A program made the translations under genes and the position numbers. From Sphaerochaeta globosa str. Buddy (lineage in GTDB: Bacteria; Spirochaetota; Spirochaetia; Sphaerochaetales; Sphaerochaetaceae): a stretch of 64,000 nt of DNA. The stretch covers positions 1,742,458-1,806,457 of the forward strand of contig NC_015152.1 of the NCBI RefSeq assembly GCF_000190435.1. The letters run 5' to 3'. Below the pieces are notes generated by a model, which was not told the origin of the DNA, searched no databases, and saw nothing but the letters and a program-made list of their open reading frames with translations. Below are positions 53,628-61,138 of the stretch, piece by piece; the stretch's first letter is position 1; the number at the start of each line of letters is the position of its first letter.

Positions 53628-54572
53628 TTAGAGGACAATCTTCGTACCTTTACCTTCGTACAGGGCGCCATACAGGTTGGCAGGATCGGTGATCAGGCCG
53701 ACATTACCGGTAGAGCGAACGAAATCTACGATGGCCTGCACCTTTGGAAGCATACTGCCAGGAGCAAAATGCCCTTCGGTGATGTACTGTTCGGCTTCGT
53801 TGACGGTAATGGTATCCAACGTCTTCTGATTGGGTTTGCCGTAGTTCAGGCATACTTTCTCAACGGCTGTTGAAATGACAAAGAGATCGGCCTTCAACTG
53901 CTTGGCCATCAGGGCGGCTGCAAGGTCCTTGTCAATGACCGCTTCCCTGCCGCTGAGCATACCATTCTCATCACGTACTACAGGAATACCACCACCACCT
54001 CCGGCGATGACAATAACCTTATTGTTCAACAGGGTGCGAATCGTCTCAAGTTCCACAATGGCTTTTGGCTTCGGACTGGCTACAACCCTGCGGTATCCTC
54101 GGCCTGCATCCTCTACGCACACCCAATTATCGTGCTGGCTGTGGTAATCTGCATCATCCTTGGTCATGAAGGACCCGATCGGCTTGGTAGGCTTGCCAAA
54201 GGAAGGGTCTGCATCGCTGACTTCAACCTGGGTAACCACCGTTGCAACTTCAGGATTCATCCCGATTTTTGTAAACTCATTCTTCAATGCCATCTGCAGT
54301 TGATACCCGATGGCTCCCTGCGTGTCGGCAACACAGCTATCCAAGGGAACGCTGTGCAATATGGAGCGGGAAAATTCCGCCCTGAGAAGAATGAAACCAA
54401 CCTGCGGTCCGTTTCCATGGGCAATGACCACCCGGTGACCGGCTTTCACCAGTTTGGCAATATGCGCTGCAGTCTTCCGAGCTGCCTCATATTGGGCTTC
54501 TACGGTGACGTGTTTTGGGTCCTCTATCAATGAGTTCCCGCCGATGGCTATTACAATAAGTTTGCTATCCAT
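53628..54572 (-). CDS. arcC: carbamate kinase, 314 aa
   Basis: Amino-acid-kinase fold with VIAIGGNSLI (about residues 5-14), VIAHGNGPQVG, the insert IGSFM and the GGGGIPVV loop (about 214-221), then VEKVCLNYGKP. It makes ATP from carbamoyl phosphate and ADP. AAGGAAGGAACC precedes ATG 54572. No arginine deiminase or ornithine carbamoyltransferase gene is nearby, so the source of carbamoyl phosphate (agmatine, allantoin or elsewhere-encoded arginine route) is open. It is divergent from the GntR regulator at 54756. Confidence 0.94.
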   Translation of the reverse strand: MDSKLIVIAIGGNSLIEDPKHVTVEAQYEAARKTAAHIAKLVKAGHRVVIAHGNGPQVGFILLRAEFSRSILHSVPLDSCVADTQGAIGYQLQMALKNEFTKIGMNPEVATVVTQVEVSDADPSFGKPTKPIGSFMTKDDADYHSQHDNWVCVEDAGRGYRRVVASPKPKAIVELETIRTLLNNKVIVIAGGGGGIPVVRDENGMLSGREAVIDKDLAAALMAKQLKADLFVISTAVEKVCLNYGKPNQKTLDTITVNEAEQYITEGHFAPGSMLPKVQAIVDFVRSTGNVGLITDPANLYGALYEGKGTKIVL

Positions 54573-54693
54573 ATAGGTTCCTTCCTTCTGTGCAGAGACA
54601 TTGAGTCTACGTCTCAATCATAGCATGTCTGCAACAAATTGCAACAGATTTTCTTGGTCTCTGCGGTATTTCCACCTTTTTCAAAAATTTTTC

Positions 54694-54733
54694 TTGACAG
54701 CTTCCCCAAGCATGGTATTCTGGTGGTATACCA
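54694..54733 (+). promoter_or_regulatory. promoter and TGGTATACCA operator of the second GntR-TRAP operon
   Basis: TTGACA (54694-54699), a 16-bp spacer and TATTCT (54716-54721), followed by the perfect palindrome TGGTATACCA (54724-54733) across the predicted start site. GntR/FCD regulators commonly bind such sites, so autorepression is likely. A 6-bp inverted repeat ATTGAG-N7-CTCAAT near 54600-54618 lies closer to arcC. Confidence 0.7.
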
Positions 54734-54755
54734 CTGGGATACTACGAGGGAGTGC

Positions 54756-55409
54756 ATGACAAAAACAGAAGTTCTCCTTGATTTGCAGCAACGCATCATC
54801 TCTGAAGAGTTCCTTCCCGGAGCCTGGTTGGTCGAACGCGACCTCAGTAGTGAATATGGGCTTTCCAGAACTCCTATTCGCGAGGTGCTGAATAAGTTGG
54901 TTCTGCTTGGTCTGATTACCGTGCAACAGAATCGCGGTTATCAGGTTCGCCAGTTTTCGTTTCAGGATGTGGTAGAAATTTTCAATGCCCGGAGAGCCAT
55001 CGAGGGAGCCTGTGCCCGCTATGCTTGTTTTACCAAAGCCCCTGATATCGATGTGAGGATCCAAGAACTTAGGGCTAAGCTTCTCGGTCTGGATATCGAT
55101 AAGGATGGAGGAAGCAAAGCGATCGCCGTCGGCAATGAGGTACATGATTATCTGATTGAACTTGCAGGGAATCGTTACCTCAAGGAATTCACCTACAAAC
55201 TTTCATCGTTGATGAAACTCACCAGAAATCTAACCAAAAACAGGACTGCAATCGAGGAAAATTCACGCCAAGATCACCTCAAGATATTGGATGCCCTGGA
55301 AAAACGTGACGCGGATTTGTGTGAACAACTGATGGACCAGCACCTGAGTAATACGTGCAAGGCATTGGCTGACACCTATCTTACGTCTCTGACCTCCTTT
55401 TACGCCTAA
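54756..55409 (+). CDS. GntR-family regulator with FCD domain, 217 aa
   Basis: N-terminal winged helix with LLDLQQRIISEEFLPGAWL and GLSRTPIREVLNKLVLLGLI, then an FCD domain (about residues 72-215). GAGGGAG precedes ATG 54756; an earlier start would run through the promoter. The TGGTATACCA palindrome in front of it and the TRAP operon 55 bp behind it indicate it controls itself and the downstream transporter and aldolase genes. It is shorter than the GntR at 8475 and not a close copy. Confidence 0.92.
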   Translation: MTKTEVLLDLQQRIISEEFLPGAWLVERDLSSEYGLSRTPIREVLNKLVLLGLITVQQNRGYQVRQFSFQDVVEIFNARRAIEGACARYACFTKAPDIDVRIQELRAKLLGLDIDKDGGSKAIAVGNEVHDYLIELAGNRYLKEFTYKLSSLMKLTRNLTKNRTAIEENSRQDHLKILDALEKRDADLCEQLMDQHLSNTCKALADTYLTSLTSFYA

Positions 55410-55464: not shown

Positions 55465-56466
55465 ATGAAGAAAAGTATCCTGATTATGGCACTCGCAGCA
55501 CTGCTGCTGATGCCCGTCTTTGCTCAAGGAACAGTCGAAGCAAAACCCGACCAAGAGTATGTGCTGAGATTCGGCCATGTGCTCACTCCTGAGGACACAT
55601 TCAACAAGCAGTATTTGGAATGGTCGAAGGCTGTAGCAGCCAGAACCAATGGCAAGTTGAAGATTGAGGTCTATCCCAGCGCCCAACTCGGTGTCGAGGA
55701 AGACGTTCTTGAACAAATTCGCCTTGGCTCCAACGTTGGTTGGCAGACCGACCCCGCCCGTCTTGGCAACTATGTCAAGGAATGGGGTATACTGTACATG
55801 CCGTTCTTCCTTGGTGGCATTGATGATGTAGAGAAACTGCTCGATTCCAAAGTCGTAAAGGGTTGGGTCGACCAGCTCGAGAAGCAGCACCAGATCAAGG
55901 TTGTATCGTACGCATGGGTACAGGGATTCCGCAACATTTTCACCAACAAGCCTGGAAAGAGCCCTGCAGAGCTGCGCAACAGCTTGATCAGAACTGCAAA
56001 CGCTCCGGCATGGCTTGCAACTGTCAACTCCCTTGGCAGCAAGGCAGTCGCACTGGCATATGGTGAGCTGTACAACGGCATCCAGACCAAAGTTGTTGAT
56101 GGTTGTGAGCTCCCCTATGCCGCAGCAAAACAGCTGAAGGTGTATGAGGTTGCAGATTACATTGTTGAAACCCAGCACATTTTCCAGCTGAACGTCATGG
56201 TTGTCAGTGCTGCTTGGTTCAACAAGCTGCCCGCCGACTATCAGCAGATCCTGATCGAAGAGTGTAACAAGGCCGGTTTGGTTGCTTCCAACATTCTGCT
56301 CAAGAATGCTGAAGCAGACCGCCAGTTCATGATCGACCAGGGCATGACCTACATCCCGCACAGCGATCTTGATGTTGCCGCTTTCAAGGCTTCCGGCGAA
56401 GCTGCCTATAAGGCACTCGGTTTGGATGCTGCAAAAGCTGCAGTCTACGCTGAACTCGGGAAATAA
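55465..56466 (+). CDS. TRAP transporter substrate-binding protein, DctP family, 333 aa
   Basis: Signal peptide (MKKSILIMAL...PVFAQG), then VLRFGHVLTPEDTFNKQYLEWS (about residues 33-54) and the DctP carboxylate region with SLIRTANAPAWLATVNSLGSK (Arg about 174), then GELYNGIQTKVVDG. Compared with the DctP at 7307 it has a different binding-loop sequence, so a different ligand is likely. GGAGG precedes the ATG. First transport gene of the second cluster. Confidence 0.94.
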   Translation: MKKSILIMALAALLLMPVFAQGTVEAKPDQEYVLRFGHVLTPEDTFNKQYLEWSKAVAARTNGKLKIEVYPSAQLGVEEDVLEQIRLGSNVGWQTDPARLGNYVKEWGILYMPFFLGGIDDVEKLLDSKVVKGWVDQLEKQHQIKVVSYAWVQGFRNIFTNKPGKSPAELRNSLIRTANAPAWLATVNSLGSKAVALAYGELYNGIQTKVVDGCELPYAAAKQLKVYEVADYIVETQHIFQLNVMVVSAAWFNKLPADYQQILIEECNKAGLVASNILLKNAEADRQFMIDQGMTYIPHSDLDVAAFKASGEAAYKALGLDAAKAAVYAELGK

Positions 56467-56540: not shown

Positions 56541-57041
56541 ATGAACCGTATAGCAAAAGCTTATAAAAAGTTCTGCGATATCGAACTTGCCGTCGGGGCT
56601 GTCCTGCTCATCTCCACGGTCTTCATCCTTACCTTTGCAGCAATCCTCAGAACCATTGGCTTTCCAATCAACTGGGGGCTCGATCTTGCCTTACTGATGT
56701 TCACCTGGTCAGTCTACGTAGGTGCTGATACTGCCCTTCGGGATGACAAAATGGTCAACGTCGAGATTTTTCAACAATTTCTCAAACCCAAAACAAAGAA
56801 AATTTTGCAATTAGTCATTTATATACTCATTCTTCTCTTCCTCTTTCTTATGGTCTACTACGGTTTCTACCTCGCATACTCATCCAGGTTCCGTACCTTC
56901 CAGGGTATTCCCTTTATGAGCTATACCTGGGCGACCTTGAGTATGCCCATTCCTTCGGTTTTCATGATCATCACCACCTGTTTAAAAATTCGTAATCTTC
57001 TGAAAAATGACAGTGCCGTCGGCTCAAAAGAAGTGAGGTAA
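56541..57041 (+). CDS. TRAP transporter small permease, DctQ family, 166 aa
   Basis: Four helices (about residues 17-37, 47-64, 88-110, 124-146) and the DctQ motif region NWGLDLALLMFTWSVYVGADTALRDD. It forms the membrane complex with the DctM encoded 3 bp later. GAGG lies upstream of the ATG. Confidence 0.92.
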   Translation: MNRIAKAYKKFCDIELAVGAVLLISTVFILTFAAILRTIGFPINWGLDLALLMFTWSVYVGADTALRDDKMVNVEIFQQFLKPKTKKILQLVIYILILLFLFLMVYYGFYLAYSSRFRTFQGIPFMSYTWATLSMPIPSVFMIITTCLKIRNLLKNDSAVGSKEVR

Positions 57042-57044
57042 GAC

Positions 57045-58334
57045 ATGATTCTTGTATTACTTATATTCCTGTTGCTGCTCTTCATCGGAGTCCCCGTAGG
57101 TTTTTCCCTGGGTATCTCCGGGATATTCTATTTTCTGCAACATATGGAACTGCCCTTGGCAACCGTTGTGCAGCTGCCGATCAGCCAAACACAAAGTGTG
57201 ACATTGTTGGCAGTCCCGTTGTTCATTTTTGCAGGAAGCCTGATGAACAGCTCGGGAATCACCACCCGCCTGATCAAGCTTGCCATGCAACTTGCCGGCC
57301 ATATGCGCGGAGGAATGGCGCAGGTCAGCGTTGTTCTGAGCACCCTTATGGGTGGCTGCTCCGGCTCCTCCAATGCCGATGCGGCCATGGAAGCGCGTAT
57401 TCTTGGACCTGAAATGCTCAAGCAAAAGTATCCCCGCGGGTATACCGCCGTGGTAATCGGCTTCACAAGCTTGATTACCTCCACCATTCCTCCTGGAGTC
57501 GGCATGATACTTTACGGAACGGTTGGCGAGGTTTCCATCGGAAGATTGTTCTCTGCCGGTATTATGAGCGGTTTGATTATGATGGCAGCATTCATGATTA
57601 CCGTAGCAATTACTGCACGCTTTCGTAAGTTCCCTAAAGCCCGTGAGCATCGTGCATCCATCAAAGAAATTGTTCTTTCCTTGAAAGATACCATCTGGGC
57701 CTTGATTTTCCCGATTGTTCTGATTGGAAGCTTGAGAATGGGCTTGTTCACCCCCTCTGAGGTCGGTGCATTTGCTTGCGTGTATGCACTCATTGTGGGT
57801 TTCTTCGTATACAAGGAAATGACCATCAAGAGCCTGATTGCTACCCTCAAGGAAGCCATCAGGGATATCGGTGGAATTATGTTCATGATTTCCATGAGCG
57901 CAGTCTTTGCCTACGGCATCCCGATGGACCAAATTCCCCAGAAATTAACCACCCTGATCACCGGTTTCACCAACAGCCAGTTTGTCGTAATGGGCATCGT
58001 ATTCTTCCTCTATGTCATCTTCGGCATGTTCATGGACGGCTCGATCGTCATCCTTCTGCTCACCCCGATTCTCATGCCGATCGTCCGTACCATCGGTATC
58101 GACCCGGTTCTCTTCGGTGTTGTGACCAGCATCATCGTCACCATGGGCATTCTTACTCCACCGGTAGGTATAGCCATGTACATTGTCAACGGAATTCTTG
58201 GTGTACCGATGTCTGAATATCTGAAAGAAAGCATTCCTTTCTTCATCGTCACCATTCTCGTGGGAGTACTGCTCCTTGCTATCCCCGATGTCATCCTCTT
58301 CTTGCCGAACATGCTGTACGGCGTAGCCAGCTAA
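57045..58334 (+). CDS. TRAP transporter large permease, DctM family, 429 aa
   Basis: About twelve helices with DctM segments STLMGGCSGSSNADAAMEA, SLITSTIPPGVGMILYG and TMGILTPPVGIAMYI. It drives Na+-coupled uptake with the preceding subunits. The aldo/keto-reductase-fold gene begins 12 bp later, so transport and metabolism are one transcription unit. Confidence 0.95.
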   Translation: MILVLLIFLLLLFIGVPVGFSLGISGIFYFLQHMELPLATVVQLPISQTQSVTLLAVPLFIFAGSLMNSSGITTRLIKLAMQLAGHMRGGMAQVSVVLSTLMGGCSGSSNADAAMEARILGPEMLKQKYPRGYTAVVIGFTSLITSTIPPGVGMILYGTVGEVSIGRLFSAGIMSGLIMMAAFMITVAITARFRKFPKAREHRASIKEIVLSLKDTIWALIFPIVLIGSLRMGLFTPSEVGAFACVYALIVGFFVYKEMTIKSLIATLKEAIRDIGGIMFMISMSAVFAYGIPMDQIPQKLTTLITGFTNSQFVVMGIVFFLYVIFGMFMDGSIVILLLTPILMPIVRTIGIDPVLFGVVTSIIVTMGILTPPVGIAMYIVNGILGVPMSEYLKESIPFFIVTILVGVLLLAIPDVILFLPNMLYGVAS

Positions 58335-58346
58335 GGAGCTGTAGAG

Positions 58347-59300
58347 ATGAAATACAAAACACTTGGAAAGTCCGGCATCGATATCTCCATGATCAGCATG
58401 GGAGGCCATGAATACCTACCCAATCATAAGTCCAGAGGTTTCAACGAGGACTTTGAGAAGGCCATCACAGCTGGATACATCTTCCCCGGTTTCGGGGGAG
58501 AGAACCGCAAGAACATCCTCAAGGCTTCCTATGACCTGGGCATAAACTTCTATGATGTGACCCATGACTCGGAGAAGGATGCGTTAGGTAGGAACTTCCT
58601 TGAACTTCCTCCACCCTACCCGGTATATATCCAGACCCGACCCGAAGGGTTTGTCTACACCTACGATGAGCACAACAAGAAAATGGCCGACTACCAGACC
58701 CTCAAAGCCGAGGCTGTGAGAATTCTCAAGTTGCTCAGACGTGACAGTATCGACTTTTTCAACTTTGCTTTCATGAAAAGTGCTCTTGAGCACGATCCTG
58801 AGTACTTGGCAAAGATTTCCTACAATATCGAACACCTCAAGAAGGAAGGCCTCATTCGCTTCGCATGTGCCGATACCTTCAGCGGGGAGAGCACCTACCT
58901 CAAGCAGATTGCCACCGGCAGTTTCGATGTAGTCTACATCAATTTCAACCTTGCAGATCACCAGGGTACAAAACGAGTATTCAAAGAAGCTGCGAAACTC
59001 GGTATGGGTGTAGTTGCAAGAGAGGCTTTCATGAAAGGCTCCCTCTTTGAGATGGCCAAGGAAGCAGGTATTGAGAATAAGACATTGCTCGCCCATGCAG
59101 CCATGAAGTGGGTTTACTCCTTCGATGAAGTATCGAGTATTGTCTACGGAACAGGAAAGGCAGAGCATCTCTATGATTCTGCATCCATTCTCGAGGACTT
59201 GCACATGAGCGAGGAAGAACAGAACCTTATCGAAGCCATTAAGAAGACTGAGCTGTTCAAAACCTATGAAACGAAAAAGAACGAAGAGTTCTTACAATAG
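58347..59300 (+). CDS. aldo/keto-reductase-fold protein with altered catalytic tetrad, 317 aa
   Basis: Overall AKR order: MKYKTLGKSGIDISMISMGG, LGINFYDVTHDSEKDALGR, RRDSIDFFNF, HLKKEGLIRFACAD and a C-terminal SIVYGTGKAEHL. The usual tetrad is Asp, Tyr, Lys, His. Here the Asp (YDVTH) is kept, but no Tyr follows in the shortened loop, the Lys position reads QTRPEG (Arg), and the His strand reads FNFAFMK. So normal NADPH reduction is doubtful. AGGAG precedes the ATG. It lies between TRAP and aldolase genes, so it should act on the same compound, perhaps with another chemistry or as a binding protein. Confidence 0.82.
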   Translation: MKYKTLGKSGIDISMISMGGHEYLPNHKSRGFNEDFEKAITAGYIFPGFGGENRKNILKASYDLGINFYDVTHDSEKDALGRNFLELPPPYPVYIQTRPEGFVYTYDEHNKKMADYQTLKAEAVRILKLLRRDSIDFFNFAFMKSALEHDPEYLAKISYNIEHLKKEGLIRFACADTFSGESTYLKQIATGSFDVVYINFNLADHQGTKRVFKEAAKLGMGVVAREAFMKGSLFEMAKEAGIENKTLLAHAAMKWVYSFDEVSSIVYGTGKAEHLYDSASILEDLHMSEEEQNLIEAIKKTELFKTYETKKNEEFLQ

Positions 59301-59319: not shown

Positions 59320-60216
59320 ATGAATTTCGAAGCAAAAGGTATTATCACTGCAATGGTTACCCCGTTGACAGCTGACTATAAGATCCACGAGAAAGGACTA
59401 CGCAAGCTGGTCAACTATATGATCGATGGAGGAGTGCATGGACTGTTTGTAGTCGGCACTTCCGGTGAATTCTACGGGTTTTCACCAGAACAACGTCGCG
59501 ATGCATTCCAAATCTGCATCGATGAGGCGAAAGGACGGGTCCCCGTGTATGCCGGGGTAAACGGCATTACCACCGCCGAGGCCGTAGGCTACGCCCAAAT
59601 GGCCGAGGAAGCGGGAGCCGATGCCATCAGCGTGCTGACACCGATGTTCATCAGCGTCACCCAGGCAGAACTCTATCAACATTATGCCGATATTGCTGCT
59701 TCCACAAAGCTACCGATGTTGCTCTATAACAACGTGGGAAAGACCAATGTGAACATTGGTGTGGATACTGTGGTGAAGCTTTCCAAGATTAAGAATATCG
59801 TAGGGGTTAAGGACAGCAGCGGCGATTTTACCCTGACCAGCGAGTACATCCGCAATACCTATCAGGCAGAGAAACCTTTCTATGTTCTGAGTGGACGGGA
59901 TACCCTGATTCATGCCTGTCTCTGTTATGGTGGTCATGGTGCAATTACAGCATGTGCAAACATTGCTCCACGCCTGATGGCAGACATCTATGACAAGTAT
60001 GTCAGCGGTGATGTAGCGGGATCACTTGAGGCCCAGTACAGAATTGCCCCGGTGAGAATGGCCTTCAACCTGGGTTCCTTCCCCACCATCCTCAAGGAGA
60101 GCCTTGAGCTCTTGGGCATCGATGCCGGTCCCTGTTTCGCCCCCGTTGGTCCTATGAGCATTGAGAGCAAGGAACTTCTGAAAAAGGCGTTGATCCAAGC
60201 AGGAGTATTGAACTAG
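59320..60216 (+). CDS. DHDPS/NAL-family aldolase, 298 aa
   Basis: Class I aldolase of the DapA/NanA superfamily: GTSGEFYG pyruvate-binding loop (about residues 47-54), catalytic Tyr in YNNVGKTN and Schiff-base Lys in GVKDSSGD. It should cleave or dehydrate a 2-keto-3-deoxy acid. The YNN and GKTN pattern differs from the YNIPQFTG of the homologue at 3760, so the two clusters probably handle different acids. AAGGAG lies 12 bases before ATG 59320, a longish spacing. It is the last gene of the operon, before a large terminator. Confidence 0.9.
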   Translation: MNFEAKGIITAMVTPLTADYKIHEKGLRKLVNYMIDGGVHGLFVVGTSGEFYGFSPEQRRDAFQICIDEAKGRVPVYAGVNGITTAEAVGYAQMAEEAGADAISVLTPMFISVTQAELYQHYADIAASTKLPMLLYNNVGKTNVNIGVDTVVKLSKIKNIVGVKDSSGDFTLTSEYIRNTYQAEKPFYVLSGRDTLIHACLCYGGHGAITACANIAPRLMADIYDKYVSGDVAGSLEAQYRIAPVRMAFNLGSFPTILKESLELLGIDAGPCFAPVGPMSIESKELLKKALIQAGVLN

Positions 60217-60397: not shown

Positions 60398-61138
60398 TTA
60401 GTCCATCAAATACCCACCATTGATATTGACCGTCTCACCGGTTATGAACGAGGCTTCATTACTTGCCAAGAAAAGCGCCGTCGAGGCTACTTCCTCAACA
60501 GTACCCATGCGACCGAGCGGAATGGCACTGATAACTTGCTTACGTTTCTCATCCGACCACTGAGCGCTCATTTCTGTAACAATGGCATGGGGAGCGATGG
60601 CATTTACCCGAACTTGGTACGGTGCCAACTGACGGGCAAGGGACCGGGTGAAGGTGGTTAGGGCCCCCTTGGAAGTCCCATAGGCCGGAGCTGCCGTAAT
60701 ATCGCCGCATTTGGCAGCTACGGAGGAGATGTTCAGAATAGTACCGCTTCTCTGAGCACTCAGATATGGAATTACTGCCTTGCTGCAGTAAAAAGCTGCA
60801 TTGACATTCACATCCATTACCTCATGCCAAGCCTTTAGTGACATATCCAATACCCCCTCACGGGAAATGATTGCTGCATTATTCACCAGAATATCAACGC
60901 CGCCCCATGCTTGGACTATTGCATCAATAGCTTGTTTCACCTGCTCATAGTCGGTGATATCGGTCTGCCTTGCCTGTACGCTATACCCTTTATCGGTAAG
61001 TTCCTTGATGAAGGGAGAAACATCACGGCGTACAAGAAGTGCCACCCGTGCCCCTTCTTTGAGAAAACGCTCGGTGATTGCTCTACCGATTCCCCGATTC
61101 CCCCCAGTGATAATCACCCGTTTGTTTGCTAATCTCAT
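60398..61138 (-). CDS. SDR-family dehydrogenase (FabG-like), 246 aa
   Basis: Classical SDR with TGGNRGIG (about residues 11-18), NNAA, catalytic ISSVAA and YGTSK (about 152-156) and C-terminal TGETVNINGGY. AAGGAG precedes the ATG. It is convergent with the TRAP-aldolase operon, not part of it, yet likely belongs to the same pathway, as SDR genes also sit in the first cluster. TTGTATACTG (complement of 61158-61167) lies just upstream of its start and could be a -10 box or a GTATAC-type regulator site. Confidence 0.88.
   Translation of the reverse strand: MRLANKRVIITGGNRGIGRAITERFLKEGARVALLVRRDVSPFIKELTDKGYSVQARQTDITDYEQVKQAIDAIVQAWGGVDILVNNAAIISREGVLDMSLKAWHEVMDVNVNAAFYCSKAVIPYLSAQRSGTILNISSVAAKCGDITAAPAYGTSKGALTTFTRSLARQLAPYQVRVNAIAPHAIVTEMSAQWSDEKRKQVISAIPLGRMGTVEEVASTALFLASNEASFITGETVNINGGYLMD

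Follow-up and report, generated by a model that had tools for sequence, protein, structure and literature searches.

A conserved aldo-keto reductase-fold protein lacking Tyr, Lys and His of the catalytic tetrad, most likely serving as a non-redox enzyme in the breakdown of sugar acids in Sphaerochaeta

The aldo-keto reductase (AKR) superfamily is a standard example of a barrel committed to NAD(P)H chemistry, and an AKR-like gene in which the catalytic residues appear replaced raises the question of what such a barrel does instead. We examined this question for a gene lying between a TRAP permease and an aldolase in Sphaerochaeta globosa str. Buddy, within a stretch of 64,000 nucleotides (contig NC_015152.1) referred to here as the window. 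The gene and its neighbours are listed by window position and strand, with the basis of each assignment in parentheses.

54639–55409, + strand: GntR/FCD regulator (Pfam)
55465–56466, + strand: TRAP solute-binding protein DctP (Pfam)
56541–57041, + strand: TRAP small permease DctQ (Pfam)
57045–58334, + strand: TRAP large permease DctM (Pfam, NCBIfam)
58333–58338, + strand: likely ribosome-binding site AAGGAG, by the DctM stop and 8 nt upstream of the start codon of the AKR-like ORF (read directly)
58347–59300, + strand: AKR-like ORF, 317 aa (Pfam PF00248 and structure models)
59320–60216, + strand: DHDPS/NAL-family aldolase, likely a 2-keto-3-deoxy sugar-acid aldolase (Pfam; neighbours of its closest relatives where the AKR-like gene is absent)
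60398–61138, − strand: SDR oxidoreductase, convergent, a possible redox partner (Pfam)

The ORF is real and its product is an AKR-fold barrel. It is a single-copy gene in the source genome, starting 12 bp past the DctM stop and ending 19 bp ahead of the aldolase start. Aldo_ket_red was the sole Pfam domain observed (53.3 bits against a cut-off of 24), and a (beta/alpha)8 AKR barrel was obtained in both structure predictions, with a pLDDT of 88.3 for model 1 (built from alignment A4, 19 rows) and 90.1 for model 2 (built from alignment A3, 12 rows). The structural library was queried with model 1 alone, with top matches that include AKR14A1 by Foldseek (E 8.2e-15) and L-galactose dehydrogenase by VIA-align (Z 28.1, rmsd 2.7, 280 aligned). 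No PDB chain matching the protein was found by phmmer.

The catalytic tetrad Asp-Tyr-Lys-His was examined in A3, whose 12 family rows omit G019 as near-identical to G025. Two aligners were used: MAFFT, run with 11 ordinary AKRs of the source genome, and hhalign, in which A3 was compared with 11 ordinary AKRs (7 of them from the source genome). The two agreed on the tetrad columns.

58554–58556, + strand: D70, the retained tetrad Asp (12/12 rows)
58557–58574, + strand: shortened loop VTHDSE after strand 2, without Tyr (alignments; the tetrad Tyr loop is deleted)
58638–58640, + strand: R98 in the tetrad Lys column (Arg in 12/12 rows; MAFFT and hhalign)
58761–58769, + strand: invariant N139 and, in the tetrad His column, A141 (alignments)

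Only the Asp was retained, in all 12 rows, and the thirteenth member (G019, L006) reads the same way, with Asp kept and Tyr, Lys and His replaced. The original prediction had proposed this pattern for the single protein, including a shortened, Tyr-less loop after YDVTH; the alignments bear out both, showing the Tyr loop deleted and the substitutions kept in orthologues throughout A3. Its account of the Lys strand (QTRPEG) and the His strand (FNFAFMK) held as to the loss of both residues and needed amendment as to what stands in their place. The family's IQTRPEG aligns with VISTKA of ordinary AKRs, which places the invariant R98 in the Lys column and the Gln, also invariant, two positions earlier. 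The His column holds Ala in 8 rows and Gly in 4, with N139 two residues before it. Q96 for Lys and N139 for His were therefore dropped, since both aligners put R98 and A141 in those columns.

Selection on the gene was estimated from pairwise comparisons, with dN/dS of 0.024 against G013 and 0.034 against G005, and of 0.052 for the close pair G025 and G001; no ratio could be derived for four more distant copies, in which dS was saturated. The gene is under strong purifying selection. A full D, Y, K and H was found in 11 of 11 ordinary AKRs of the source genome, and together with the dN/dS of 0.024–0.034 this argues that the loss of the tetrad is not chance.

The cofactor side was altered as well. 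The roles of the columns listed below are those known from AKR1 structures and are presumed to hold here.

58872–58877, + strand: D176-T177, columns of the nicotinamide-binding Ser-Asn (both aligners)
58935–58943, + strand: Gln column, occupied by Y197, with N199 invariant (alignments)
59019–59024, + strand: R225-E226, columns of the stacking aromatic and the following Ser (12/12 rows)

The nicotinamide-contact Ser, Asn and Gln and the stacking aromatic are all absent from the family in the MAFFT columns. The Ser column is D176 in 12/12 rows, the Asn column (T177) holds Thr in 11 rows and Ser in one, the Gln column (Y197) holds Tyr in 8, Asn in 3 and Trp in 1, and the stacking aromatic column is R225 in 12/12 rows. 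At the adenine side, the column that is Gln in 9 of the 11 ordinary AKRs holds H in 10 family rows, N in 1 and E in 1. The C-terminal cofactor-binding stretch around GTGxxxHL is still AKR-like in sequence. The cofactor-side segments had been described as normal, and this did not stand, as all 12 rows depart from ordinary AKRs at the four nicotinamide-contact columns and at the adenine-side Gln. Binding of NAD(P) has probably been lost, judging from these columns.

An alternative is that the protein is still an NAD(P)-dependent oxidoreductase of a sugar or sugar acid, with Arg serving for Lys, and Y23, Y104, Y106 or H21 serving for Tyr as proton donor. Tyr residues are among the invariant positions of A3, the change from Lys to Arg is conservative, the GTGxxxHL stretch persists, and the top structural matches are AKR oxidoreductases. 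The altered nicotinamide contacts and adenine-side Gln count against it, as do the invariant D176 and R225, which would place charges at the nicotinamide position, and any redox step could come from the SDR in the cluster. We consider this alternative fairly unlikely, and the protein is very probably not an ordinary reductase. L-galactose dehydrogenase, AKR14A1/YghZ and AKR11C1 resemble it in the barrel, the N-terminal MKY..LGKSGI.IS, the Asp and the C-terminal helical region, but the AKR-like protein differs from these ordinary AKRs in lacking Tyr, Lys and His, in its nicotinamide contacts and in an added insertion of 20–30 residues.

58407–58505, + strand: family-specific insertion after strand 1, residues 21–53, HEYLP..SRGFNEDF..GFGGE (alignments; absent from ordinary AKRs)

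Confidence in the insertion was low in model 1 and 67–78 by block in model 2. Invariant residues in A3 (68 of 317) were concentrated at the mouth of the barrel, with 33 of 91 on mouth loops and 35 of 226 elsewhere (Fisher p = 1.2e-4, a value made optimistic by kinship among the rows and based on loops hand-set from model 1). The former active site bears a new invariant polar set, which makes "inactive" unlikely as the whole story. Of the original description of a conserved inactive or repurposed AKR between a TRAP permease and an aldolase, "conserved" and "repurposed" fit the observations (orthologues in two phyla, substitutions in 12/12 rows, purifying selection and 8/8 operons), and "inactive" fits them poorly.

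The family is rare among the genomes sampled, in sets that overlap one another. At E <= 1e-12, members were observed in 9 of 139 genomes of the source's family, in 2 of 392 genomes of a phylum-wide sample (both within the genus) and in 4 of 317 genomes from the order to which the alphaproteobacterial MAG G434 belongs. For the class of G434 at 1e-15 (1/385) and its phylum at 1e-20 (1/349), the sole match was G434 itself each time. Of the 13 member genomes, 8 belong to the genus and G1135 to another genus, and the others are G434, G1065, G1067 and G970, so that orthologues span two phyla, and identity to the window protein within A3 was 39–92%. Two scans of viral contigs found no relatives. Plasmid matches were rejected as relatives: those listed were of only 23–30% identity, and the two records inspected contain genes annotated as aldo/keto reductase. 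Searches of the open-access literature found no publication on the family.

Within the genus, the order GntR, DctP, DctQ, DctM, AKR-like, DHDPS-type aldolase was observed in 8/8 copies, counting G013, whose contig stops within the aldolase. Among the 139 family genomes, a DctP orthologue (68–100% identity) was present in the 9 that have the AKR-like gene and in no other, the next DctP being at 48%, and an aldolase orthologue (at least 74%) was present in 8 of these 9. The SDR gene of G001 (L044:6856-7131) matched over 37% of its length only, with other ORFs adjoining; the SDR may therefore be dispensable. A carbamate kinase gene, arcC (53628-54617, − strand), is divergent from the GntR gene in the window; it adjoins the operon in 7/8 genus loci and lies about 5 kb off in G007. 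It also neighbours other genes common to those loci, and we treat it as no more than a candidate member of the pathway.

The nearest PDB entry to DctP was 2hpg (288.8 bits), which we take to be TM0322 of Thermotoga maritima, and TM0322 is presumably UctP. PMC3750489 lists a hypothetical sugar as the substrate of the UctMPQ system of T. maritima. A nonulosonate substrate such as sialic acid was considered and set aside, since DctP scores 289 bits with 2hpg and about 100 bits with SiaP.

Four of the eight genus operons (G001, G012, G019, G025) carry ribulose-phosphate-epimerase-like and GalB-like genes downstream of the aldolase, and in G1135 the TRAP genes are followed, towards the end of a contig, by the AKR-like, epimerase-like and GalB-like genes. 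The GalB-like PIG-L protein at L041:6421-7158 (− strand) scored 130 bits to 5cgz, a 4-oxalomesaconate hydratase, and further copies were observed in L042, L043, L044 and L050, giving five such operons bearing the AKR-like gene in all. The GalB-like protein may be a further enzyme of the pathway that adds or removes water, or could take on the water chemistry in place of the AKR-like protein. These additional genes indicate more than one non-redox step, and they bear on the alternative that the AKR-like protein is a non-redox pathway enzyme other than a dehydratase, namely an isomerase, epimerase or lactonase on either side of the aldolase step. The loss of redox residues would suit such an enzyme equally. 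The window operon lacks both genes, however, and has only the AKR-like and aldolase genes after the transporter; we regard this reading as unlikely.

In the alphaproteobacterial loci the transporter was of another type. In G434, G1065 and G1067 the AKR-like gene has the last permease gene of an ABC importer on one side and the ATPase gene of that importer on the other. In G970 it is flanked by a HpaI/GarL-type aldolase and an MFS transporter, the best scores of the latter being to D-galactonate transporters. Other aldolases in these loci included an RraA-like one, one gene off in G1065, and a class II aldolase about 7 kb off in G434. In G434 the ABC ATPase gene is separated from the AKR-like gene by an extra 341-aa ORF without a Pfam match (L046:2278-3303, − strand).

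In potassium channels the beta subunit is an AKR-fold protein attached to a membrane transporter, and the position of the AKR-like gene directly after the last permease gene, in TRAP and ABC settings alike, would suit a comparable non-catalytic subunit, either ligand-sensing or transporter-associated. We judge this very improbable: the invariant residues cluster at the barrel mouth, and the transporters are unrelated (TRAP, CUT1-like ABC and MFS), which makes it unlikely that a physical contact has been conserved. Kv channel beta subunits (AKR6) have the AKR fold in common with the protein, with a weak sequence match. They keep Tyr and Lys and have Asn as the tetrad His, whereas the AKR-like protein lacks Tyr and Lys and has Ala or Gly in the His column, which is not the AKR6 pattern.

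The neighbours of related aldolases offer a closer guide to function. In genomes without the AKR-like gene, the nearest aldolases were those of G018 (61%), G021 (58%, partial), G1164 (55%), G020 (54%), G017 (53%) and G1159 (53%), and we compared the loci of five of these six relatives at 53–61%, leaving out G021. An enolase-superfamily sugar-acid dehydratase adjoins the aldolase in 4 of the 5. This was a glucarate-dehydratase-like gene in G017 and G020 (742 bits, below the equivalog cut-off of 829) and a galactonate-dehydratase-like gene in G1164 and G1159 (283 bits; cut-off 311), and G017 also has a galactarate dehydratase and a tartronate-semialdehyde reductase, both above their cut-offs. 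In G018, the closest of these aldolases, no enolase-type dehydratase was found among the ORFs read in 18 kb, and the aldolase clade of G018 therefore need not follow a dehydratase.

In the window and the 13 AKR-like loci, tblastn with two enolase-type dehydratases and one GarD-type galactarate dehydratase gave no match. Of ten further ORFs in the alphaproteobacterial loci, nine had a Pfam match, none of these to a dehydratase. This search covered the loci themselves, so that a dehydratase may lie elsewhere in the genome, and IlvD/EDD dehydratases were sought by reading long ORFs only. With a dehydratase beside related aldolases and none beside the AKR-like gene, the AKR-like protein appears to hold the dehydratase slot. 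The pattern is also compatible with a GalB-like hydratase, with a gene located elsewhere, or with a substrate that is dehydrated from the outset.

Taken with its gene context, the protein most likely catalyses a non-redox step in the breakdown of sugar acids. We tentatively favour, at somewhat less than even confidence, an AKR barrel that no longer carries out NAD(P)H-dependent hydride transfer and works on a sugar acid brought in through the neighbouring TRAP transporter, most likely as a dehydratase or lyase feeding the aldolase; the dehydratase reading is preferred mainly because of the slot position in related modules. Under such a mechanism, elimination of water would give a 2-keto-3-deoxy acid, which the aldolase of the next gene would then cleave. 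R98, at the old Lys position, and R225 may hold the carboxylate, D70, D176 and E226 with H21/E22 could supply base and acid, a possible metal might sit on D176, N199 and E226 at the ends of strands 5–7, where nicotinamide would lie, and the conserved insertion would close the site. A more specific proposal, which we consider doubtful, is a cofactor-free AKR-fold dehydratase, derived from an NADPH oxidoreductase, whose D176, N199, E226 and R225 form a metal or charged site at the old nicotinamide place. In Sphaerochaeta-like spirochaetes and in some Alphaproteobacteria such an enzyme would have replaced enolase-type dehydratases without being orthologous to them.

Enolase-superfamily dehydratases such as GudD and galactonate dehydratase occupy the equivalent operon place, ahead of a DHDPS-type aldolase and by a transporter, but have no sequence kinship to the AKR-like protein, in which Pfam finds Aldo_ket_red only and no MR_MLE domain. 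The loci also resemble the two-step modules of dehydratases with GarL/HpaI, DHDPS/NAL or RraA-like aldolases, with the AKR-like protein at or near the place of the first step, and differ from them in that this first enzyme is of another fold. Since importer and aldolase share an operon with the AKR-like gene, the question of its substrate is directly testable. A new catalytic role for an AKR-like protein is plausible in this context. If the proposal is true, a conserved branch lacking both tetrad and nicotinamide contacts, yet retained in catabolic operons of two phyla, would show the passage of a redox barrel to a lyase or isomerase, and it would correct the annotation based on the Aldo_ket_red family, which is likely wrong in function for these proteins.
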